The notes under the pieces: model-generated
Databases searched by the model: none
What the model was told of the DNA's origin: nothing
The model's input: only the letters and a program-made list of their open reading frames with translations
Position numbers and translations under genes: made by a program
Source: a virus
Length of the DNA stretch: 29,150 nt
Direction: 5' to 3' (one strand)
Virus record (IMG/VR): IMGVR_UViG_3300017917_002929
Span: 1-29,150 of that record
Shown: positions 7,435 through 26,779 of the stretch, piece after piece
Numbering within the stretch: the first letter of the stretch is position 1
Layout: each line of letters begins with the position of its first letter

Positions 7435-7794
7435 ATGGATTTTAATCAAGTTTTATTCAAAGATAAAACCTTTTCAAGCTTACTTGAGGATATATATAAA
7501 AATGCCAACCGTAAGGAAAAGGAAATCAAAGCATTAATCGATCAACTGAAACCTATGATACAGGAGCCAGGTGACGCGATGATGCTTGTTCCTTTGTTAA
7601 AGGAATATATGGAATTAGCAATTAAGAATGATGATGCCTTAATTAAAATGGCAGGTATTGTTCAACGAGGAATGAATAGCAATAGCGGAAATACTGATGA
7701 TGGTATGTTAAGTGAGCGTGATAAAGAATTATTGTTCCAAGAAATTAGTAATATTGGCCATAATGTTGAAGTAAAGCAACTTGAAAATAAATAA
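7435..7794 (+). CDS. Helical hypothetical protein upstream of the baseplate hub genes (119 aa)
   Basis: An all-helical acidic protein of unknown family. It has a short N-terminal segment (MDFNQVLFKDKTF), charged helices (NANRKEKEIKALIDQLKP, then LVPLLKEYMELAIKNDDALI), a Ser/Asn/Gly linker (about 80-95) and a final helix. It is the first gene after the sigma factor and a candidate late promoter. Its stop overlaps the start of the composite hub protein (TAATG). It could be a chaperone or small tail-assembly protein; this is inferred only from position. Confidence 0.75.
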   Translation: MDFNQVLFKDKTFSSLLEDIYKNANRKEKEIKALIDQLKPMIQEPGDAMMLVPLLKEYMELAIKNDDALIKMAGIVQRGMNSNSGNTDDGMLSERDKELLFQEISNIGHNVEVKQLENK

Positions 7795-8798
7795 TGGGTA
7801 GAGAAAATACTATACGAACTGGAGTGAACGTACCTAACAGAATGTTAGATATGACTTATAATGTATCTAGTGCTAAAAAATCTCCTGCTCCACATTTCAC
7901 TTATGGTTTAGTTAGAGATGTAAATCCAAGTAATAGATCAATTTCATACTCACCTATTGTAAGTAATGTACCTTCAAATAAAGTAGGTATAGCTATTCCT
8001 TTATCAACTAATTTTGTTAAATTACCTGAACCTAATAATATAGTTCGTATATTTGTAGGTCCTGATATAGATGCTTCAATAGCTAACTCTGTAGGATCCA
8101 ATACAATGTATTATGATCCAACCCCAGTTGGTGTTTGGAAAACAGTAGATAATAATAAAATTGATCAAAGTTTACTTCAAGCTCCAAAAGATAAAGCATC
8201 TAATGTAAATGCTAAAGATATAAAAAAAGCAGCTTTAGGCATACCTCACAATTCAAATAAAAAAACAAACGGTGCTAACTCATTACCTACACATAATTAT
8301 ATAATTTCAAAACCAATAGCATCAGATGACAGTTTCGCTATTATAATTGGGGGTTATCCAAGTTCAGCTAATGGTGCTTCTCAAATTAAAAAACTAGCTG
8401 AAGCAGCAGGAGTAACAAGTAATAAAAATATTATTTTTAGCGACTATGAGAACTCAACTGAAAGTCTTAAAAATGTTATAAAAAAAGATTATCCAAATGC
8501 TACATTCTCTTCATTTAGTGGATGGTCAAGAGGAGGATTAAATGCTTGGGCAGAAGTAGGTAATTTTAATTTTGTAGGATTAATGGACCCATCAATGCCT
8601 AGTGGGTATATCCCAAACACAACAGACCCAGGAGCATTTATGATGTATAATCCTAATAACTGGCATACTAGTTACCCATTAATAGAATCAAATCAAAGAT
8701 TATATGGCCCTAAAATGGGAAATAGAGCCACAGAATTAAAACAAGGACATTCTGTTATACCAGTAACATTTTTAAAGACATATAGAAATAGATTATAA
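7794..8798 (+). CDS. Baseplate hub-like protein with C-terminal serine-hydrolase (lipase/esterase-like) domain
   Basis: 334 residues. Residues 35-90 form a beta-rich segment (HFTYGLVRDVNP, RSISYSPIV, VGIAIPLSTN, NNIVRIFVG) like the OB-fold of gp5-type hub proteins. A linker (about 115-175) leads to an alpha/beta domain: strand FAIIIGGYPSS, helix, strand NIIFSDYEN, helix, then FSGWSRGGLNAW with a nucleophile elbow Gly-x-Ser245-x-Gly. Strand FVGLMDPSMP presents Asp265 and KQGHSVIPV presents His319. This Ser-Asp-His order is that of the alpha/beta-hydrolase fold. I infer an esterase or lipase acting on the envelope during infection. T4 carries a lysozyme at the comparable place. Stop and next start overlap (TAATG). 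The hydrolase reading is motif-based; the hub role is inferred from the OB-like part and context. Confidence 0.7.
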   Translation: MGRENTIRTGVNVPNRMLDMTYNVSSAKKSPAPHFTYGLVRDVNPSNRSISYSPIVSNVPSNKVGIAIPLSTNFVKLPEPNNIVRIFVGPDIDASIANSVGSNTMYYDPTPVGVWKTVDNNKIDQSLLQAPKDKASNVNAKDIKKAALGIPHNSNKKTNGANSLPTHNYIISKPIASDDSFAIIIGGYPSSANGASQIKKLAEAAGVTSNKNIIFSDYENSTESLKNVIKKDYPNATFSSFSGWSRGGLNAWAEVGNFNFVGLMDPSMPSGYIPNTTDPGAFMMYNPNNWHTSYPLIESNQRLYGPKMGNRATELKQGHSVIPVTFLKTYRNRL

Positions 8799-10735
8799 TG
8801 GCAAACGATAAAATATATCCTATAGATATGAATTCCAAAGATATCCTCCTTCAAAATGAAGGTGGAGGTGGAATGATTATGAATGATCAATTTATTGGTA
8901 TTGTAGGTAATATGCTTCCTGACCAAAAGAAACTTCTTGATGATCAAGAATATACTGGTGGTACTAATATACAAACAGATAAATTTTCTAGTAATATTAT
9001 AATCACTAATGCTAGTAGTAATCCTGTTGGTGTAAATGACTTAGCAAGTAAGAACTTTGATTCATTAGATCAAAGTATAGGTACTAATCAAGTAGTAGCT
9101 CCTGCTCCAAAAGAACATTGTGGTGGAGCTAATTTATTAAATTATGAATTTCAAGAAGCTGCTCAAAATTTTTCATTATGGGAAGAGATAAATAGTGATG
9201 GAGGTAATCCAAAATTAAATTTTAATGATAATAACAATTATCTTAAAACTGAAGATCAACTAAATAAATTATTATTTTCAAAAACATCTATTGATGTTAT
9301 AAAAGGTGTAATATCCTTAGATAATTCCTCTTTTAAAGATTTAGGATGGGGTCAATATGGTAGTGGTTTATCTGATCTTTCACAAAATGTATTGAATTTT
9401 TATGACAATTACTTTTTAAGTAATAAAAAAAATGATTTAGGAAAAATTAAATATACATTAAAATATTTTAAAAATAATAATGGTGTTAATAAAAATGAAG
9501 CTAGAAGTGTATTTGATATACAAACATTACCTTCTGGATTAAGAGTAATGGCTTTACAAAACTGTTATAATTCAGGAGATAAATGGATAAATAGAATACT
9601 AACAACAATGGGTCCTAATAGACTAAATGTTCTTAATGGGATATTTGGTATTACTATTGAACAATCAAAAACAGGTGGAAAGGGTGCTTTACCTCCTGAT
9701 GAAAAAGCTAAAAAGTTTTTTGATCAATACGCTGATATAATTAATACTTATAATGAAGATAAACCTAAATTTTTAAAAACCTTAGCTACAGAAACTAAAG
9801 AATGGTATGGTAGATTAGTAGACCAAGGTGGAGATAAAAGATATAAACAACAAAATAAAGCATTTAAAGATTTTTATAATGTTTATGTTGATATAGCTCT
9901 AGCAATAGCATTAAAATATGCTGATTGCCCTGATGAATATGAATTAGCAGGAAATGTTCCAACAGCACCAACACCCTCTCCATCAGTGACAGTGACAGCA
10001 CCTCCAACAGTAGCAGAAACGGATGATGATATATACGCGGCGGAACTTTTACCTGCTTCAGAAGATGAAACTTTTAAAGTATTTGATGATGTGGAATATT
10101 CATCAAATTCAATTATATTAGATTTAATAGCAGAAGATCCATCAAGAGTAAATCCTTTTAAACCACCTACTAAAGTAGACCCATCATTACTAGTGGATAT
10201 GAATGAGATTTCTAAATGGGTAAAAATGGATAAAGATGCCCAAAGTGATTTTGATAATGGATGGACAAATCCAAATCATCCAAAATGGGGAACAATAAGT
10301 ATTAATCCTTATTTACTACAAAGTATAGCGTCAGCTTGTAAAAAGGTTAATATAGTAGCTACTATAACATGTGCAAAAACAGGACATGGTATAAAATCTA
10401 AAGGTGGTGCTGAGAGTAGACACTGGAAAGGTACTGGCGTTGATATTGGTATATTAAATGGTATTGCAGGAGAAAATAAACAATTCGCTGGAACAAATAT
10501 AAATAATATGGTACCTGAATTTCGAAGATTAGGTACAATACTTTATAATCAATTAGTAGCAGATGGACATGGTGGAGATGAAAGTCTTTTAGGTACAATG
10601 AAACAAGTTGAAGCATCATATGATAAATCTGTGTTATTTATGACAGATGTAGGCGGTAATCACTATAATCACTTACATGTTGGTAATAGAATTCTATCAG
10701 CACCAGGTGTTAAACCAAAAATAGTTAGATATTAA
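8798..10735 (+). CDS. Multidomain baseplate/tail lysin with C-terminal M15-like zinc peptidase domain
   Basis: 645 residues in three parts. Residues 1-110 are a Gly/Asn-rich unassigned head. Residues 120-380 are a helical domain with WEEINSDGG, ALQNCYNSGDKWI and KEWYGRLVDQGGDKRY; its layout loosely recalls GH108-type muramidases with a helical C-terminal part, but no catalytic Glu is certain. A Pro/Thr/Ser linker (389-406) leads to residues 490-645, where SRHWKGTGVDIG places His542 and Asp549 and NHYNHLHVG places His625 and His627. That His-x6-Asp plus His-x-His pattern marks M15/VanY-like peptidoglycan peptidases. The position three residues before the HxH (often Glu or Asp) is His622, which is odd. 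It is likely a virion-borne wall-degrading enzyme for DNA entry. It follows the esterase-like hub gene directly. Confidence 0.75.
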   Translation: MANDKIYPIDMNSKDILLQNEGGGGMIMNDQFIGIVGNMLPDQKKLLDDQEYTGGTNIQTDKFSSNIIITNASSNPVGVNDLASKNFDSLDQSIGTNQVVAPAPKEHCGGANLLNYEFQEAAQNFSLWEEINSDGGNPKLNFNDNNNYLKTEDQLNKLLFSKTSIDVIKGVISLDNSSFKDLGWGQYGSGLSDLSQNVLNFYDNYFLSNKKNDLGKIKYTLKYFKNNNGVNKNEARSVFDIQTLPSGLRVMALQNCYNSGDKWINRILTTMGPNRLNVLNGIFGITIEQSKTGGKGALPPDEKAKKFFDQYADIINTYNEDKPKFLKTLATETKEWYGRLVDQGGDKRYKQQNKAFKDFYNVYVDIALAIALKYADCPDEYELAGNVPTAPTPSPSVTVTAPPTVAETDDDIYAAELLPASEDETFKVFDDVEYSSNSIILDLIAEDPSRVNPFKPPTKVDPSLLVDMNEISKWVKMDKDAQSDFDNGWTNPNHPKWGTISINPYLLQSIASACKKVNIVATITCAKTGHGIKSKGGAESRHWKGTGVDIGILNGIAGENKQFAGTNINNMVPEFRRLGTILYNQLVADGHGGDESLLGTMKQVEASYDKSVLFMTDVGGNHYNHLHVGNRILSAPGVKPKIVRY

Positions 10736-10737
10736 TA

Positions 10738-11172
10738 ATGGGAAAAGATATAAATCAATATAAAGGAGAACAGATAGTATTATCATCAGGACGTTTAGTT
10801 TTTAACTCACGTGTTAATGATATTTATTTAAACGCTAAACGTTATATCAACTTCTCAGCTGGTGATAAAGTAACTATTGATGTAGGTAATATAGATAGTG
10901 ATGACGAACAAAATATGTTTTTAGTTAATGCTCCTAGAATACAGTTTGGTCTAGATAAAAATGGTGTAGCTGAACCAATAGTTAAAGGTGAGCAGTTAGA
11001 TGAGATATTATCTCAAATAATGGAAGCTTTAGCTGAGTATAGTGATTTGGTAGCTACATCATCTAATGAACCTGCTATAGCACCTATTGCTGCTAAATTT
11101 ATACAAGGTAGATTTCAAGGAATAAAAGCAAATCTAGAAAATTTTAAATCAACTAAATCCTTTACAATATAA
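10738..11172 (+). CDS. Baseplate spike protein, gp5 C-terminal-like beta-helix
   Basis: 144 residues. The N-terminal half is a run of short strands (EQIVLSSGRLVFNSRV, IYLNAKRYINFSAGDKVTID, QNMFLVNAPRIQFGLD) of the kind that makes the triple-stranded beta-helix of phage central spikes, where each strand adds a turn. The C-terminal half (about 85-144) is helical: a VKGEQLDEILSQIMEALAEY helix after a short Pro-rich connector, typical of gp5 C-terminal proteins in T4-like marine phages. It would form the membrane-piercing tip under the hub. It follows the peptidase protein by two bases and overlaps the next start. Confidence 0.68.
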   Translation: MGKDINQYKGEQIVLSSGRLVFNSRVNDIYLNAKRYINFSAGDKVTIDVGNIDSDDEQNMFLVNAPRIQFGLDKNGVAEPIVKGEQLDEILSQIMEALAEYSDLVATSSNEPAIAPIAAKFIQGRFQGIKANLENFKSTKSFTI

Positions 11173-12254
11173 TGGTATCAATCCCAAGTAATTTAAATCC
11201 ATCTCAAATAGGGAGTGTTGTTAATAATATTCCTGGCGCTGGTGCGGCTATAGGTAGTGCTAAAGCATTAGTTGGAGCCGGTGTAGCTAAAGCTGAGGAA
11301 GCTCAAGCTCAACTTAAAAAAGCTAAAGCCAAAATGGATAAGGCTAAGAAAGAATTAGAAAAATCTAAAAATGCTAAAAACTTTCTAAAAGATCAAAATA
11401 AATTAAGTGCTGCTGATACTAGAAATATACTAGTAGCAGCTGCTTTACCTATACTATCTCAATTTATCAATACAGAAAAATTAACAAAATTATTAATAGA
11501 TAAAATTATTAATGAAGCAAAAAAGAAACTAGAAAAATATGGCCGTGTAGAAGTATCAGGAGGTACAATTACCTTCACTCCTAAAAGTAAAGGTGATTTT
11601 GAAAAATTCGCTCAAAATTTTAAACGTAAAGTAGACTCATTAAAAAAAGCAGTTGCATCATTAAAAAAGATAATTGATTCTTTAGTTACCTTACTTAAGA
11701 TAGTTAGAGCAGGATTAGTAGCTATTAAAGCATATATTGTAGTTTTAAAAATAAAATTAAAAAGACTAGCTGCTAAAGCCGCTGCTGAAGCTGCACTTCC
11801 ATCTGATACAAAACCAGCAATGGCTAAGTATATAGCATTTAAAGAAGCAACTGATCCTATAATAAATGTATTAGAGAAAAAAGTAGATGATTATATATTA
11901 ATGACCACAGTTATTAGTGGTATGTTAGGTATATTTAAAAAATTAATTGATAAAATTAAACAAAAATTAGATCGATTAAATATTATTATTAATAGTGTAC
12001 CTGATCCATCTAACACATTATCAACAGAATTAAACACTACACCTACTTCAACAACCACAACATCAACATCATTGGAAGATTATGAAGACATGAAAGGTAG
12101 ACAATATTCTATCAAAGTTGATACTCTCCCAGATGGATCACTACAAGCTACAGCTTTTGATAAATCCAGCAAAATGCCAATAGCAAAAACAGCTCCTAGT
12201 AGAACACGTGGAGCCGATAAATTACTTGATGAAATTAAACAAATATTAGGATAA
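11172..12254 (+). CDS. Long helical structural protein, probably hub- or tail-associated (360 aa)
   Basis: Residues 30-70 form an Ala/Lys/Glu-rich coiled coil (KAEEAQAQLKKAKAKMDKAK), residues 75-230 are more hydrophobic helices (including SLVTLLKIVRAGLVAIKAYI, which may be buried or membrane-interacting), and residues 230-280 are a second coiled coil with FKKLIDKIKQKLDRLNIIIN. A Thr/Ser-rich linker (about 285-300) is followed by a compact beta-alpha tail. Helical Ala-rich proteins with internal hydrophobic segments are seen among tape-measure and hub-chaperone proteins, but it is far shorter than a tape measure. It overlaps the spike gene by one base. Function is inferred from context only. 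Confidence 0.72.
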   Translation: MVSIPSNLNPSQIGSVVNNIPGAGAAIGSAKALVGAGVAKAEEAQAQLKKAKAKMDKAKKELEKSKNAKNFLKDQNKLSAADTRNILVAAALPILSQFINTEKLTKLLIDKIINEAKKKLEKYGRVEVSGGTITFTPKSKGDFEKFAQNFKRKVDSLKKAVASLKKIIDSLVTLLKIVRAGLVAIKAYIVVLKIKLKRLAAKAAAEAALPSDTKPAMAKYIAFKEATDPIINVLEKKVDDYILMTTVISGMLGIFKKLIDKIKQKLDRLNIIINSVPDPSNTLSTELNTTPTSTTTTSTSLEDYEDMKGRQYSIKVDTLPDGSLQATAFDKSSKMPIAKTAPSRTRGADKLLDEIKQILG

Positions 12255-12270: not shown

Positions 12271-12735
12271 ATGAAAGCGGATACATTCGTAAAATTATTA
12301 AGAAAAGTCGTGCGTGAAGAAGTACAAGCTGTTGTAAGGGAAGAGCTAGGATTATTACTTGAGGCGCCAACGCCTAAACCGGTAGTGGCAGAGTCCAAAA
12401 AACCGGCTATTAAAAATTCCATGGTCGAATCAATACGACCTGCCAAACCTACACAGCCTTCAAAACCTATGAGTTTTTCTAGTAACAACGTATTAAATGA
12501 TATTCTAAATGAAACAGCTAATGCTGGTGAGTGGAGAACAGTAGCTGATATGAAAGCTGAAAACGCTATGGGTTTCGGAGGAAACGCATACGGGAATGAA
12601 TCTATGGTAGTAGAAAGCGTTGATCAAATGTTAGCTAGTACAAGACCAGCAGGAGATATTAACGCTGTTAGAATTGATGTTGTACCTGACTTCACAGCAT
12701 TAATGAGTAAAATGAAACAAGAAGGACAAATATAA
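12271..12735 (+). CDS. Hypothetical protein before gp25 (154 aa), N-terminal helix and disordered middle
   Basis: Residues 1-32 form a strongly amphipathic charged helix (KLLRKVVREEVQAVVREELG). Residues 33-70 are Pro/Lys/Ser-rich and probably disordered. Two helices follow, with a conserved-looking NVLNDILNETANAGEWRT segment and a C-terminal DVVPDFTALMSKMKQEGQI. No catalytic motif is seen. It lies immediately before the gp25 gene with TAATG overlap, as small wedge-associated proteins often do. I have no family name for it. Confidence 0.75.
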   Translation: MKADTFVKLLRKVVREEVQAVVREELGLLLEAPTPKPVVAESKKPAIKNSMVESIRPAKPTQPSKPMSFSSNNVLNDILNETANAGEWRTVADMKAENAMGFGGNAYGNESMVVESVDQMLASTRPAGDINAVRIDVVPDFTALMSKMKQEGQI

Positions 12736-13157
12736 TGTTAAAAAGACCTACATATACCTTAAATCCCCAAGACGTCGGACAAAAACGAGGTATTGGAATT
12801 AGTGTTCTTTTTAATAATGGAAATAATGTTTTCAATCAAACATTCACCACTAAAGATCAAGTTAAATCTAATTTAATTAACTATATATTAACTAATAAAG
12901 GTGAGCGTTTTTTTAATCCTACATTTGGGGGTGATTTAAGAGCTTCACTATTTGATCCTGATTCTTCATTTGATAATATAACAGCTAGATTAGAACAAGA
13001 AATATACGCTTATGTACCTAATATTATTATTCGTAATATAGGTATCAAAAAATATTCTGATGAAAATTTAGTGAATATAACACTAGACTATTCAATAAAT
13101 AACCAAGATGATACTTTAGTAATAAATGTATCAACAAATGATTTAACTAAACAATAA
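12735..13157 (+). CDS. gp25: Baseplate wedge protein, gp25/GPW family
   Basis: 140 residues, the usual length of T4 gp25 (about 132). The family signature is at residues 56-75: GERFFNPTFGGDLRASLFDP, preceded by the VKSNLINYILTNK helix and followed by an amphipathic helix (ITARLEQEIYAYVPNI) and two terminal strands (IGIKKYS and NITLDYSINN). gp25 forms the core of each baseplate wedge with gp6 and gp53 and is related to a type VI secretion baseplate protein. It is followed by the gp6 gene with TAATG overlap, the expected partner order. Confidence 0.92.
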   Translation: MLKRPTYTLNPQDVGQKRGIGISVLFNNGNNVFNQTFTTKDQVKSNLINYILTNKGERFFNPTFGGDLRASLFDPDSSFDNITARLEQEIYAYVPNIIIRNIGIKKYSDENLVNITLDYSINNQDDTLVINVSTNDLTKQ

Positions 13158-15028
13158 TGGCAAACGTACCTGATATAAAATATTTTGATAAAGACTTTAC
13201 TACGTTAAAGCAAGATCTAGTCAACTATGCTAGAACATATTTTCAGAACAACTATATGGATTTTAGTCCATCAGCACCTGGTAATATGTTTATGGAAATG
13301 GCTGCTTATGTAGGTGATGTATTATCATTTTACACTGACACTCAGTTACAAGAAACATTATTATTATATGCTCAAGAGAGAAAAAATATTATTGCTTTAG
13401 CATATGCTTTAGGTTATCGTCCTAAAGTAACTACAGCATCATCAGTAGTGTTAGATGTATTTCAATTAATACCTTCTGATGGTTCTCCTAGTTATAATCC
13501 TGATTATAGATATGCTTCAACATTAGATAAAAATACTGTAGTTAAATCAAATTCCAATCCAAACATAACTTTTATTACTCAAGATTCAGTTGATTTTAAA
13601 TTTTCATCATCATTTAATCCAACAGAAGTTAGTATATATCAATATTATAACTCAACTACAAATCCACAATATTATCTACTTAAAAAACAAGTAGAAGCAA
13701 TATCAGGACAAATTAAAACAACAGAATTTACATTTGGTAATCCTGAACAATTCCCAACAGTCACTATTAATGATGATAATATTATTGAGATACTTAGTAT
13801 AACTGATAGTGATAATAATACATGGTATGAAGTTCCTTATTTAGCTCAAGACACAGTATTTGATGAATCTTTAAATCTACCAGTATTTGAACCTAATTAT
13901 AGTAATGATGATAGCGCTCGTTTTTTATTGCGTTTAAAAAAAGTTCAAAGACGTTTTTCAACACGATTTAATGATGATAACAATTTAGTGTTAGAGTTTG
14001 GTAGCGGCGTTACTTCAGTTCCTGATGAGACAATTATACCTAATCCTGATAATGTTGGTTTAGGTCTAGTTGATGGAATTAGTAAATTAAATATGGCTTA
14101 TGATCCATCTAACTTCCAATATACAAATGAGTATGGTATTGCTCCTTCAAATACTACTTTAACAGTAACTTACTTAGTAGGTGGAGGTGTTGAAACTAAT
14201 TTGCCATCAGATGATATTAATTTAAATACTGACACTACTGTTAATATTAATGATTATAATTTAGACCCAACATTAGTTACTATTTCAAAAGGATCAGTTA
14301 GATTTAACAACCCAGCCCCTTCATCTGGAGGAGGACCGGGAGAAACTACTGAGCAGATTCGTTTACAAGCATTAGCTAATTTCCCAACTCAAAATAGAAA
14401 TGTCACTAAAGCTGACTATTTAGTTCGTGCTTTATCTATGCCTCCTAAATATGGTTATATAAGTAAAGCTTATGTAGCACAAGATTATTTAGTAATGAAT
14501 GACGCTGACAAACAAAATTTTATTACTAATAATCCTCTAGCTATTTCAGTTTATGTTTTATCAAATAATATAGATGGTAAAATAACAACAGCTGCTAATA
14601 TTATAAAACAAAATTTAAAAACATACTTATCATATAATAAAATGATGAGTGATGCTATTATCATTAAAGACGCTTATTATTCTAATATTAAAGTTAACTT
14701 TGACATAACAGCATTACCAGCTTATAACTCACAAGATGTATTAACTAAATGTATCGCTGAATTGAAATCATATTTTGATATATCTAAGTGGCAAATTAAC
14801 CAACCTATTATATACTCAGACATTTATAATTTAATAGGAGCTGTTAAAGGTGTACAATCAGTTATTAAAGTGACTATTGAAAATTTAGCAGGAGGTAATT
14901 ATTCTCCTTATAGTTATGATATCCAATCGGCTACAAAGCAAGGTGTTGTTTATCCTTCATTAGACCCAATGATTTTTGAAGTAAGATATCCTGACACTGA
15001 TATTTATGGCCGTATTGTAACCTACTAA
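13157..15028 (+). CDS. gp6: Baseplate wedge protein, gp6/baseplate-J type
   Basis: 623 residues (T4 gp6 has 660). The N-terminal segment has the family pattern: YFDKDFTTLKQDLVNYAR, then FSPSAPGNMFMEMAAYVGDV, LSFYTDTQLQETLL and ERKNIIALAYALGYRP. A beta-rich middle follows (about 90-330). The C-terminal half holds GETTEQIRLQALANFPTQNR and VTKADYLVRALS, found in baseplate-J proteins, and a ferredoxin-like terminal part with YNLIGAVKGVQSV. gp6 forms the ring that joins the six wedges. The gene follows gp25 directly. Start chosen at the TAATG overlap. Confidence 0.9.
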   Translation: MANVPDIKYFDKDFTTLKQDLVNYARTYFQNNYMDFSPSAPGNMFMEMAAYVGDVLSFYTDTQLQETLLLYAQERKNIIALAYALGYRPKVTTASSVVLDVFQLIPSDGSPSYNPDYRYASTLDKNTVVKSNSNPNITFITQDSVDFKFSSSFNPTEVSIYQYYNSTTNPQYYLLKKQVEAISGQIKTTEFTFGNPEQFPTVTINDDNIIEILSITDSDNNTWYEVPYLAQDTVFDESLNLPVFEPNYSNDDSARFLLRLKKVQRRFSTRFNDDNNLVLEFGSGVTSVPDETIIPNPDNVGLGLVDGISKLNMAYDPSNFQYTNEYGIAPSNTTLTVTYLVGGGVETNLPSDDINLNTDTTVNINDYNLDPTLVTISKGSVRFNNPAPSSGGGPGETTEQIRLQALANFPTQNRNVTKADYLVRALSMPPKYGYISKAYVAQDYLVMNDADKQNFITNNPLAISVYVLSNNIDGKITTAANIIKQNLKTYLSYNKMMSDAIIIKDAYYSNIKVNFDITALPAYNSQDVLTKCIAELKSYFDISKWQINQPIIYSDIYNLIGAVKGVQSVIKVTIENLAGGNYSPYSYDIQSATKQGVVYPSLDPMIFEVRYPDTDIYGRIVTY

Positions 15029-15038
15029 AAATTAAATT

Positions 15039-15638
15039 ATGGACTTAAGTAAATTAAAAGGACACGTTCCTGATAAAGTAATTGATCAAATCCCAGGAGT
15101 AATGGATAAATTCCAAATTAACACTCCACTACGTTTAGCACACTTTTTAGCTCAATGTGGCCATGAATCAGGTGGATTTAGATTAACTAAAGAGAATTTA
15201 AACTATAGTGCTAAAGGTTTAGCAGGTACATTTAAAAAATATTTCCCAACAGAAGCAGCAGCCGCATCATATGCTAGACAACCTGAGAAAATTGCTAATA
15301 AAGTGTATGGAAATAGAATGGGCAATGGTCCTGAATCATCTGGAGACGGTGCAAAGTATTGTGGTCGTGGTTATATACAGTTAACAGGTAAAGATAATTA
15401 CACAGCATTTGGTAAATCTATTAATGAAGATGTTTGTGCTAACCCAGCAGTAGTAGCTGACAAATATGCTTTATTATCAGCTGCTTGGTTCTTTAATAAA
15501 AATGGCTTACATAAAATGGCTGATGAAGGTGCTACTGACGCAGTTGTAACTAAAATCACTAAACGTGTCAATGGTGGTACTATTGGTTTAGCGGATCGTA
15601 TTAAGCATTTTAAAGAATATCATCATTTATTAGCTTAA
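15039..15638 (+). CDS. Glycoside hydrolase family 19 lysozyme/chitinase-like enzyme
   Basis: 199 residues, a single-domain GH19. Catalytic Glu43 is in LAQCGHESGGFRL and the second Glu (Glu52) is in KENLNYS, as in phage GH19 endolysins. GRGYIQLTGKDNY (109-121) is the substrate-cleft signature, and WFFNKNGLHK and VNGGTIGLADR complete the domain. The enzyme cuts beta-1,4 bonds in peptidoglycan or chitin. There is no signal peptide. Its position among wedge genes suggests either a virion-associated lysin or the lysis endolysin; no holin was found beside it. The start codon is preceded by an A/T leader 10 bases after the gp6 stop. Confidence 0.92.
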   Translation: MDLSKLKGHVPDKVIDQIPGVMDKFQINTPLRLAHFLAQCGHESGGFRLTKENLNYSAKGLAGTFKKYFPTEAAAASYARQPEKIANKVYGNRMGNGPESSGDGAKYCGRGYIQLTGKDNYTAFGKSINEDVCANPAVVADKYALLSAAWFFNKNGLHKMADEGATDAVVTKITKRVNGGTIGLADRIKHFKEYHHLLA

Positions 15639-23837: not shown

Positions 23838-25100
23838 ATGTCAGCAAATGTGTATAAAAGACTTAATGTATCTGATACTTTCGTAGTACCATATACAGCA
23901 AACAAAAGCTGGGATATCACCTCAGAGTCTTTTGCTGCTAATAGAATCAGCGTACTTGTAGGAGTTAATTATAGTGGATCTACATTTAATCCTGCTTCAG
24001 AGTATATTTCTAATAATCAGTATGATAGATTAGTTTATGATTCTGTTAATTTAACTTATTATCCTAGTTTTTTACCTAGACATATTGATATATCATCAAA
24101 AGTAAATACATTACTTAATGATGGTACTTTAACTACATCTTCTTATTTTAGAGGACATGTTGAATTAGGTAACGCTAATACTGTAAAATATTTTCCAACT
24201 GGAGCTAACGCTTATATATATGTTTTAAACATACCTAAAAACTTAACCAGCGAAAAAATATTACCAACTACTTTTGAAGCCTATTTCACTTCAGCTTCAT
24301 CAGAAATAAAATTATATGATGATGGAAATTATAATCTACTTTATAGTGGAAGTAATGTGAGTTCATCTATTGGAACTATATTAACATATGGCTCACAAGT
24401 TGGTAATGTATTTTATGAACAAAATATAGCTATTTTAACTGTTGTACCTGATAGTATATTAGCTACATCATGGAGAGGAGCTAATCCATATTGTGTTACA
24501 GTACCATTATCTCCTAGTGCTACACCTAGTGTCACTCCAACTGTTACACCAACTGTTACACCAACAATTAGTGTCACACCAAGTGTTACACCTAGTATAA
24601 CTGTGACTCCAAGTATCACTCCAACAATTTCAACATCTATTAGCACTACACCTAGTGTAACTCCAACTATATCAGTTACACCAACAATTAGTGTTACACC
24701 AAGTATTACAACAACACCATCAATAACAATAACTCCAACTATATCAGTTACACCTACTATAAGTGTTACACCAAGTATTACTGTAACACCAAGTGTTACT
24801 CCAAGCCCATCACCTAATTATAACCCAACAATAACAGGAGTATATAATATTGATAATATAAGTGGAGAGTGTTATCTTGATCCAGGCAATTATGAAACAA
24901 TCCAAACATGGTACGTGACATTTGCTTCACCATCAACAGTGAATGGAACTGTTAGAATTACATTTGATGATTCATATACTGTAGATTGCTCCTTTAGTAT
25001 AGGTGATACACAATCAGGTGAAAGTACTGGATATAACTGTGGTTGTGGTGGAGTATTATGTAGAGGTATTAGTGATGTGTTTTCAACCACTTTCCTATAA
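23838..25100 (+). CDS. Probable fibre/adhesin protein A with Thr/Ser-Pro repeat linker (420 aa)
   Basis: Residues 1-220 are a globular mixed-beta head (VYKRLNVSDTFVVPYTANKS, SVLVGVNYSGS, DISSKVNTLL, FEAYFTSASSEIKLYDDG). Residues 222-332 are a low-complexity linker of the pattern [13 protein letters not shown], mostly Thr, Pro, Ser, Val and Ile, likely extended. Residues 333-420 form a small beta domain with five Cys, including the CGCGGVLC cluster. The form resembles a phage fibre or adhesin: a virion-attached head, a stalk and a host-contact tip. The linker Thr/Ser could be glycosylated, but this is speculation. Start is the ATG after an A-poor 10-base gap. Confidence 0.72.
   Translation: MSANVYKRLNVSDTFVVPYTANKSWDITSESFAANRISVLVGVNYSGSTFNPASEYISNNQYDRLVYDSVNLTYYPSFLPRHIDISSKVNTLLNDGTLTTSSYFRGHVELGNANTVKYFPTGANAYIYVLNIPKNLTSEKILPTTFEAYFTSASSEIKLYDDGNYNLLYSGSNVSSSIGTILTYGSQVGNVFYEQNIAILTVVPDSILATSWRGANPYCVTVPLSPSATPSVTPTVTPTVTPTISVTPSVTPSITVTPSITPTISTSISTTPSVTPTISVTPTISVTPSITTTPSITITPTISVTPTISVTPSITVTPSVTPSPSPNYNPTITGVYNIDNISGECYLDPGNYETIQTWYVTFASPSTVNGTVRITFDDSYTVDCSFSIGDTQSGESTGYNCGCGGVLCRGISDVFSTTFL
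24505..24825 (+). repeat. Thr/Ser-Pro coding repeat, linker of fibre gene A
   Basis: A degenerate repeat of six to nine bases encoding Thr-Pro-Ser/Thr with Val or Ile. It contains a long imperfect direct repeat: 24660-24708 and 24732-24780 (46 of 49 bases agree by eye, offset 72). The DNA varies by synonymous bases elsewhere while the amino-acid pattern persists. It is inside a gene, not an array of spacers. Confidence 0.9.
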
Positions 25101-25114
25101 AATATGTATAAAAA

Positions 25115-25714
25115 ATGAGTAATACAGGATATAAAGCATATACAAATTTAGAACAATACTATATTAATAGTGGTGTCGCTACAGGCGTCACTAAAACAAA
25201 TAGTATTAGTGATCCTGATTATGTTGCTCCTGTTTATGATACTGCTTATTGTCCTTTACCATCAAATTCACCTTCACCAACTCCTAGTGTTACACCATCT
25301 ATCACAACCACACCAAGTATTACTCCAACAGTAACACCTAGTGTAACACCTAGTACTAGTATAGTGGCGTCTCCAAGTGTAACTCCTTCAATAAGTGTGA
25401 CACCAAGTATTACTCCAACAATTAGTAAGACACCATCAATAACACCAACTCCTAGTATAACACCTAGTAGACCACCTTCTTATAATTACTATGAAGCTGA
25501 TAGATATGATTGTATTAATGGATTATGTACTTATATTGAAACAGTAACTATCGCTAACCCTTCAGTATTAATTGAAGGTAAGTTTTATTTAGATTCTATC
25601 AATAACTACATATTTAATATTGTAAACACTAGTTTAACTGGACCTTACTTATATACAAGTATGTCAGGATTGGGGACAAATAACTGTAATACATTATGCT
25701 CAATAACACCATAA
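25115..25714 (+). CDS. Probable fibre/adhesin protein B with Thr/Ser-Pro repeat linker (199 aa)
   Basis: Residues 1-50 carry the segment [20 protein letters not shown] and [17 protein letters not shown], a pattern I associate with surface or structural repeats of Bacteroidota and their phages. Residues 52-120 are a Thr/Ser-Pro linker with [14 protein letters not shown] and [11 protein letters not shown]. Residues 121-199 are a small beta domain with Cys-containing loops (DCINGLCTY and NNCNTLCS). It is much shorter than its neighbours yet has the same head-linker-tip layout, so it is probably a related accessory adhesin. The intergenic gap of 14 bases before it contains ATATGTATAAAAA, a poor promoter-like match. 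Confidence 0.7.
25268..25473 (+). repeat. Thr/Ser-Pro coding repeat, linker of fibre gene B
   Basis: Same repeat type as in gene A, encoding TPSVTPSIT-like units. It shares ACAATTAGTAAGACACCA exactly (25418-25435) with the linker of gene C (26321-26338), which shows homologous DNA between the two linkers. Confidence 0.88.
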
Positions 25715-25723
25715 TGATTTAAA

Positions 25724-26779
25724 ATGAATTCAAGAAACGTAAATATAAACCTCACAAGAGTAAAATTTAAAAACAACCATGTTGTTTATGAGAATTTTGC
25801 TAAGTGTACTATAAAGGATTATGAATTCAATTTAAGTTATAACCCAACTTTATTATCAGGATCTCAAGGATTACTTGTTCCTTATACTTATACAAGTGCA
25901 TCATATAGAGGTAGTGAGACTTTTTATGAAGTTACAGGATCTGAATATTTTGGAATACTAAAAGATTTTGCCACTGGTTCTATTTCGGGATCAGATTTTT
26001 CTCCATATGTTAGTACTATTGGTTTATATAATGATGCTCAAGAATTATTAGCTGTAGCTAAAATGGCTGTTCCTACTCCAATATCTCCTAACACAGATAT
26101 GACTTTCTTAGTGAAGTTTGACACTCAATGGAATAATAAACCTTATTTCACTCCAACACCATCACCATCAAGAACTCCATATCCAACACAAGAAGTACCT
26201 TCTTTAACACCTACAAATACTCCAACAGTTACACCAACTGTTACTCCAAGTGTCACACCAACCATATCGAAAACACCAAGTGTAACACCAACGATATCAA
26301 CAACACCAAGTATAACACCTACAATTAGTAAGACACCAAGTATAACACCTACAGCGACAGTTAGTGTTACTCCAAGTATCACACCTTCTTTAACACCTAC
26401 TCCATCTGCTGGTGGTATATCAATAAATGTAATTGATTATGTATATCCTGTAACAGCAGGTTACGGATCCTCTTCAGGTACTATAACTAATACTTCAGGA
26501 GTTACAATTTATGTTTATCTTGTATTCAATAGTGGAGGTCACAATTCAGGTAATATAAACAATGATAGTGGAGATGTGGAAGGGAACATTTTATCTATGA
26601 GTGGTACTATAACATCATATGGACAATATTTTTATTCAACTAGTTATGTTGCTTTAGCTAATGGTTCGACCAATATAGGATGGAATTTATCTAAACAAGA
26701 TAATTTATCAAGTGGCGCTAGTCTAAGACTTGGATACTCAACCACACCAGGTGGTACAATAACATTAATAGCAGAATAA
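25724..26779 (+). CDS. Probable fibre/adhesin protein C with Thr/Ser-Pro repeat linker (351 aa)
   Basis: Residues 1-140 form a beta-rich head whose end ([20 protein letters not shown], then [12 protein letters not shown]) is related to the C-terminus of the protein encoded at 22748. Residues 142-229 are the Thr/Ser-Pro linker. Residues 230-351 form a Gly/Ser/Thr/Asn-rich beta domain ([36 protein letters not shown]) without Cys, different from the tips of A and B. The head-linker-tip layout is again that of an adhesin. The gene overlaps nothing and follows gene B by 9 bases. Confidence 0.72.
26145..26407 (+). repeat. Thr/Ser-Pro coding repeat, linker of fibre gene C
   Basis: It encodes [18 protein letters not shown] and following units with Ile-Ser-Lys-Thr-Pro. 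A direct repeat ACACCAAGTATAACACCTAC and its next base occurs at 26303-26323 and 26333-26353 (offset 30). Related sequence is shared with gene B. Confidence 0.88.

Follow-up and report, generated by a model that had tools for sequence, protein, structure and literature searches.

The stretch of DNA analyzed here (the window) comprises 29,150 nucleotides, positions 1 to 29,150 of IMG/VR virus record IMGVR_UViG_3300017917_002929. At positions 7794-8798 on the plus strand lies an ORF of 334 amino acids, which starts with ATG and is joined to both neighbouring genes by TAATG junctions. Its product is composed of two modules, an N-terminal one of ~150 residues and a C-terminal one of ~165 residues. 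The features of the ORF and of the surrounding region are listed in Table 1.

Table 1. Features of ORF 7794-8798 and of the neighbouring baseplate region (positions in the window).
Feature	Position	Strand	Basis or remark
Conserved small protein	7435..7794	+	alignment A6
N-terminal hub domain, MG[RK]ENTI..., putative OB-type	7794..8255	+	residues 1-154; profile match, common to 15 loci without the C-terminus
Variable linker joining hub domain to enzyme	8256..8303	+	length differences, low conservation
Compact alpha/beta-hydrolase domain (predicted)	8304..8795	+	residues 171-334; AF2, VIA, Foldseek
Ser245, predicted nucleophile, GWSRG	8526..8528	+	invariant 39/39; strand/helix turn in model
Asp265, predicted catalytic acid, GLMDPS	8586..8588	+	invariant 39/39 (partly forced by search motif); end of beta-6
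His319, predicted catalytic base, GHS	8748..8750	+	invariant 39/39; loop before last helix in model
Second cassette gene, 645 aa	8798..10735	+	conserved N-terminus, variable remainder
M15-like metallopeptidase motifs SRHxxGTGVD and NHLH	about 10196-10693	+	C-terminus of the 8798-10735 product; Pfam weak
Predicted beta-helix spike protein, gp5C-like	10738..11172	+	profile match to A9 columns 271-402
Coiled-coil rich baseplate-region protein	11172..12254	+	distant counterpart bears hydrolase in L204/L207
gp25-type baseplate wedge protein	12735..13157	+	PF04965 30.5 bits (cut-off 27.2); PHROG 261
gp6-like baseplate wedge protein	13157..15028	+	PHROG 219; 48.6% identity to immuto baseplate wedge
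GH19 endolysin-like gene	15039-15638		near baseplate genes

The wedge protein encoded at 13157-15028 shares 48.6% identity with its counterpart in Flavobacterium phage vB_FspM_immuto_2-6A (immuto hereafter), 46% with that in Microcystis phage Mel-JY01, and 41% with that in a 484-kb uncultured phage. These identities, together with the gp25/gp6-type genes, mark the locus as a contractile-phage baseplate region, and the source of the window is predicted to be a contractile-tailed water phage belonging to the broad group of immuto. The small protein encoded at 7435-7794 immediately precedes the hub gene in every relative examined and has >500 relatives in viral contigs, and family searches with it returned no match; it is a good anchor for locating the hub genes in this phage group. 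Far downstream, three successive genes (23838-26779) match a single PHROG of unknown function, 15511, which is a sign of related tail-fibre-like proteins.

The hub-type N-terminus that had been proposed from the sequence alone was recovered by profile comparison. The profile of the hub domain (A3; residues ~1-150) matched the N-terminus of A9, the profile of the one-chain hub/spike proteins found in immuto and in numerous environmental phages, with a probability of 97.6 and an E-value of 4e-12 in hhalign. The product of 10738-11172 matched the C-terminal part of A9 (columns 271-402) with a probability of 98.9 and an E-value of 1.8e-17, and by this profile homology is the putative counterpart of the beta-helix spike. 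As the two proteins correspond to the two ends of A9, the hub/spike appears to be split here into separate genes, with the predicted enzyme carried on the hub half and the putative beta-helix spike encoded by 10738-11172. A search of P0005 for the middle part of the immuto-type hub proteins found nothing. Profile searches of PDB with the hub domain gave no match, including any solved OB fold; the N-terminal module is thus regarded as a probable homologue of hub proteins with a putative OB fold. Four other full-length relatives (L004, L005, L006, and L007) were detected in viral contigs, and 15 further loci match only the first ~150 residues of the ORF.

A close counterpart is immuto gp116 (YP_010114567.1, annotated as hypothetical), which shares the homologous hub domain, the predicted beta-helix, and the same order relative to the gp25 and wedge genes, but is a single chain without an enzyme domain. 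In phage T4, gp5 is cleaved into gp5*, comprising the OB and lysozyme domains, and gp5C, the beta-helix (PMC3004832). The arrangement in the window resembles that of gp5*/gp5C in that an N-terminal hub domain is followed by a predicted enzyme, the putative beta-helix spike is a separate chain, and gp25/gp6-type baseplate genes adjoin. On the other hand, the split here lies between separate genes instead of being made by proteolysis, another gene intervenes between the hub and spike genes, the OB fold is a putative one, and the enzyme is predicted to be an alpha/beta-hydrolase in place of the lysozyme of T4.

The C-terminal module belongs to a family absent from the catalogues searched. The protein encoded by 7794-8798, searched alone, had no match in Pfam, PHROGs, NCBIfam, or, by sequence, PDB, and none in isolate phages (tblastn), plasmids, or genome contigs. 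Distant relatives were reached via the alignment of the conserved upstream gene (A6), which led to L062, a locus whose C-terminus is 33% identical to the C-terminal domain (residues 171-334) with a pairwise E-value of 2e-14 and retains the Ser, Asp, and His. The alignment including L062 yielded 80 loci with 57 distinct sequences, of which 39 domain sequences were non-redundant (<93% identity); the search that collected most of the members used two patterns, one of them being F[VI]G[LF][IM]DPS. The 39 members gave only weak matches to FSH1 in Pfam (best E-value of 0.065). Matches to FlgI and to antibodies in the profile searches were dismissed as chance, being short stretches with E-values of 0.03-0.9. 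The family is widespread among phages and in no protein-family catalogue searched, and this uncatalogued enzyme family is the main new item of this study.

The sequence-only reading had placed a catalytic triad at Ser245, Asp265, and His319, and all three residues are conserved beyond chance: each is invariant in 39 of the 39 members, although the constancy of Asp265, unlike that of Ser245 and His319, is partly ascertained, as the search pattern included the DPS motif. They account for three of the nine invariant columns in the 39-member alignment, are kept down to about 21% identity, and are invariant in the full-length relatives as well. Conservation extends to residues of non-catalytic character, namely Pro266, Ser267, the Trp at model position 125, and Phe161, and some hub genes carry no C-terminal domain at all, as might be expected if the domain were a binding or structural module of hydrolase origin that had lost catalysis. 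Such a module would need no conservation of this Ser/Asp/His set, and these three are the only typical catalytic residues among the invariant ones, so that we deem a non-catalytic module very unlikely and retain the reading of the domain as an active enzyme.

The fold predicted for the C-terminal domain agrees with this reading. The AF2 model computed with the 39 diverse relatives had a pLDDT of 94.5 and a pTM of 0.90, while that computed with four close relatives only had a pLDDT of 44; the latter model found no significant match in Foldseek, and its list, albeit leaning to hydrolases, is not counted as proof. With the former model, all of the 50 matches listed by VIA were alpha/beta-hydrolases, nearly all of them esterases (Z of 11.6-13.4 over 147-163 residues), in a list that speaks for the families it contains and not against those it lacks. 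The best match listed was the LC-Est1 esterase domain (Z of 13.4, rmsd of 3.2, 158 residues aligned), and the other top rows were esterases, feruloyl esterases, and S-formylglutathione hydrolases. Foldseek against PDB agreed with the alpha/beta-hydrolase fold (best E-value of 3.4e-4), as did Foldseek against the viral models of BFVD. The alpha/beta-hydrolase nature of the C-terminus that the sequence-only reading had put forward is thereby upheld, and the non-hydrolase tail fold that it had named as the contrary outcome did not appear among the listed matches. On the other hand, the profile search against hydrolase families that it had suggested gave no Pfam match for the protein above the curated cut-offs.

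In the model, the secondary-structure elements follow the order of a minimal alpha/beta-hydrolase. Ser245 is located at the turn between the strand of model residues 72-80 and the helix of 82-88 (this fourth main strand is conventionally called beta-5), Asp265 closes the following strand (95-101; beta-6), and His319 lies in the loop preceding the last helix (157-164). The acid and the histidine follow the nucleophile in the order of alpha/beta-hydrolases, as had been claimed, with the correction that the acid comes after beta-6 and not after beta-7. The acid of alpha/beta-hydrolases is canonically placed after beta-7, and the position after beta-6 is unusual, albeit shared by human pancreatic lipase; no other conserved acid was found after beta-7 in the 39-member alignment. 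The nucleophile sits in a mid-domain GxSxG, not in an N-terminal GDSL/SGNH motif, and the Pfam search of the protein gave no match to Lipase_GDSL. Altogether, the C-terminal domain is confidently predicted to adopt an alpha/beta-hydrolase fold and is most likely a small, lid-poor serine hydrolase with a Ser245-Asp265-His319 triad. The fold by itself cannot separate an esterase from a peptidase, amidase, or thioesterase.

The position behind the hub domain holds different enzymes in different relatives. C-terminal to the same hub domain, Phage_lysozyme2 was detected in L018 and L027 (60 and 56 bits; cut-off 28.2) and Peptidase_M15_3 in L014 (31 bits; cut-off 23.2), so that the earlier remark on a lysozyme or peptidase being usual in this slot is right: close relatives hold exactly those enzymes. 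A small beta-rich domain occupies the slot of L015-L017, a second hydrolase-like type that of the second copy in L014 and of L059, and the slot is empty in L008-L013 and L020-L022. Two comparisons illustrate the exchange. L017 and the locus in the window are 100% identical in the two upstream proteins and 97% in GH19, but the hub domains are only 36% identical and the hydrolase is absent from L017. L005 shares 90% identity with the window in the hydrolase, against 61% in the hub domain and 34% in most of the following gene. Conservation is much higher in the flanks than in the cassette, and we conclude that the enzyme is exchanged as a unit within this hypervariable hub cassette.

The second hydrolase-like type bears the motif FS[AK]G ... 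EP ... HW (L014:9095-10024, L059:3783-4895, and L008:3574-4122) and occurs in the same cassette, in some cases joined to the hub domain and in others within the next gene. Comparison by hhalign found no clear homology between this type (the P0010 type) and the main family, with probabilities of 0.7 for the four close relatives and 23 for the full family. The next gene, 8798-10735, retains its start across relatives and varies strongly in the remainder; judged by eye, its counterparts have M15-like, CHAP-like, GDSL-like, or second-hydrolase contents. As no homology was found by BLAST between P0005 and the M15 domain of L014, the M15 assignment of P0005 rests on the motifs.

Members of the hydrolase family were also found in other fusions, namely with VanY and M23 (L183), VanY and PG_binding_1 (L167), PG_binding_1 (L164), VanY (L197), and PG_binding_1, Phage_lysozyme2, and a GDSL lipase (L175). 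The last chain (L175:2338-5115; 926 aa), as well as that of L176, has a weak CHAP/NlpC match at its N-terminus. These partners suggest the cell wall or its vicinity as the site of action. Such company, along with the lysozyme or peptidase held by the same slot in relatives, would also suit a serine peptidase or amidase of the alpha/beta-hydrolase fold acting on peptide or amide bonds of peptidoglycan. However, the nearest folds among the matches listed are esterases, pointing in the model to esters, and a second peptidase would be redundant where peptidases already reside in the same proteins or loci. We thus consider a peptidase or amidase unlikely and favour an esterase or acylhydrolase as the predicted activity.

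Esterase-like domains at the tail tip are not new in themselves. Tal of the Staphylococcus siphoviruses 80alpha and phi11 is a hub-type protein of the tail tip that ends in an esterase/lipase-like domain (PMC7048315, PMC5380687), as predicted for the protein described here, but it differs in having a gp27-like N-terminus, an SGNH/GDSL fold with another motif, and an origin in siphoviruses of a Gram-positive host. Lipases have also been predicted in the virions of Cellulophaga phages (PMC5380687). The gp5-like spikes of T6SS similarly deliver enzymes, lipases included, into bacterial envelopes, as in the specialised VgrG and the Tle lipase effectors; these belong to a bacterial secretion system and to other families, and the cited Tle1 is a bound cargo (PMC10433429). 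Lysin B of the mycobacteriophage type is an alpha/beta-hydrolase esterase that acts on the cell envelope, as is predicted for the hub hydrolase, and that of a Gordonia phage was among the weak BFVD matches, but Lysin B is a larger protein encoded by a lysis gene and not fused to a hub, and no sequence similarity between the two was found. For contractile phages, the mainly open-access literature searched contained no account of an alpha/beta-hydrolase in the gp5* slot. The sequence-only reading knew of no esterase described for this phage type; since the esterase-like domains of siphovirus Tal were already described, what is new is the placement in a contractile phage, in a gp5*-like slot, along with the family.

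We regard it as likely that the protein encoded by 7794-8798 is a serine hydrolase borne on the hub, probably with esterase activity, and assists in breaching the host envelope at entry; its virion location, catalytic activity, ester substrate, and action at entry are what we infer from the above. The protein would be that half of a split tail hub/spike which bears the enzyme; in this arrangement, the N-terminal domain is placed in the baseplate hub and the 10738-11172 protein forms the spike, comparable to gp5*/gp5C. Tail contraction would carry the hydrolase with the spike to or into the envelope, where it may hydrolyse esters (amides being less likely) and, together with the M15-like peptidase encoded by the next gene, clear the way for the tube. 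Its targets could plausibly be acyl lipids or the O-acyl groups of peptidoglycan or surface polysaccharide, with O-acetyl groups or acyl lipids being the most economical guesses. More tentatively, and with chances we put a little short of even, this compact hydrolase family, as yet unnamed, may be a general envelope-breaching module of large immuto-related environmental phages, swapped with lysozyme and peptidases in the hypervariable cassette and matching the hub enzyme to the ester-modified or lipid barriers of particular hosts. The locus and its relatives show that the enzyme slot of a contractile-phage hub can be exchanged and is not reserved for peptidoglycan hydrolases. Near-identical genomes differ in this enzyme, so that what drives the choice of hub enzyme (host wall chemistry, capsule, or O-acetylation) can be tested directly; the widespread family is also readily testable and could find use in opening bacterial envelopes.

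The hydrolase domain lies beside hub/baseplate genes in 36 of the 81 contigs, and in many members its gene directly precedes the gp25 and wedge genes. In the remaining 45, it is a stand-alone gene with no baseplate genes within the 3-kb flanks, implying that the family is not restricted to hubs; part of it may act elsewhere, for example in lysis. These stand-alone members, as well as the GH19 endolysin-like gene near the ORF, would fit a lysis or assembly enzyme that merely shares an operon with baseplate genes and stays outside the virion. Nevertheless, the enzyme is covalently joined to the hub domain in the window, and hub, beta-helix, and hydrolase form one 741-aa chain in L205/L208, so that for this protein we rate a role outside the virion as the least probable of the readings considered and prefer the hub-borne hydrolase. 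Many of the non-hub members (L164, L182, L200, L155, and others) carry at their start a short M-K/R-x-x-x-T-E-S-Q-like segment, perhaps a leader that is processed or serves in targeting.
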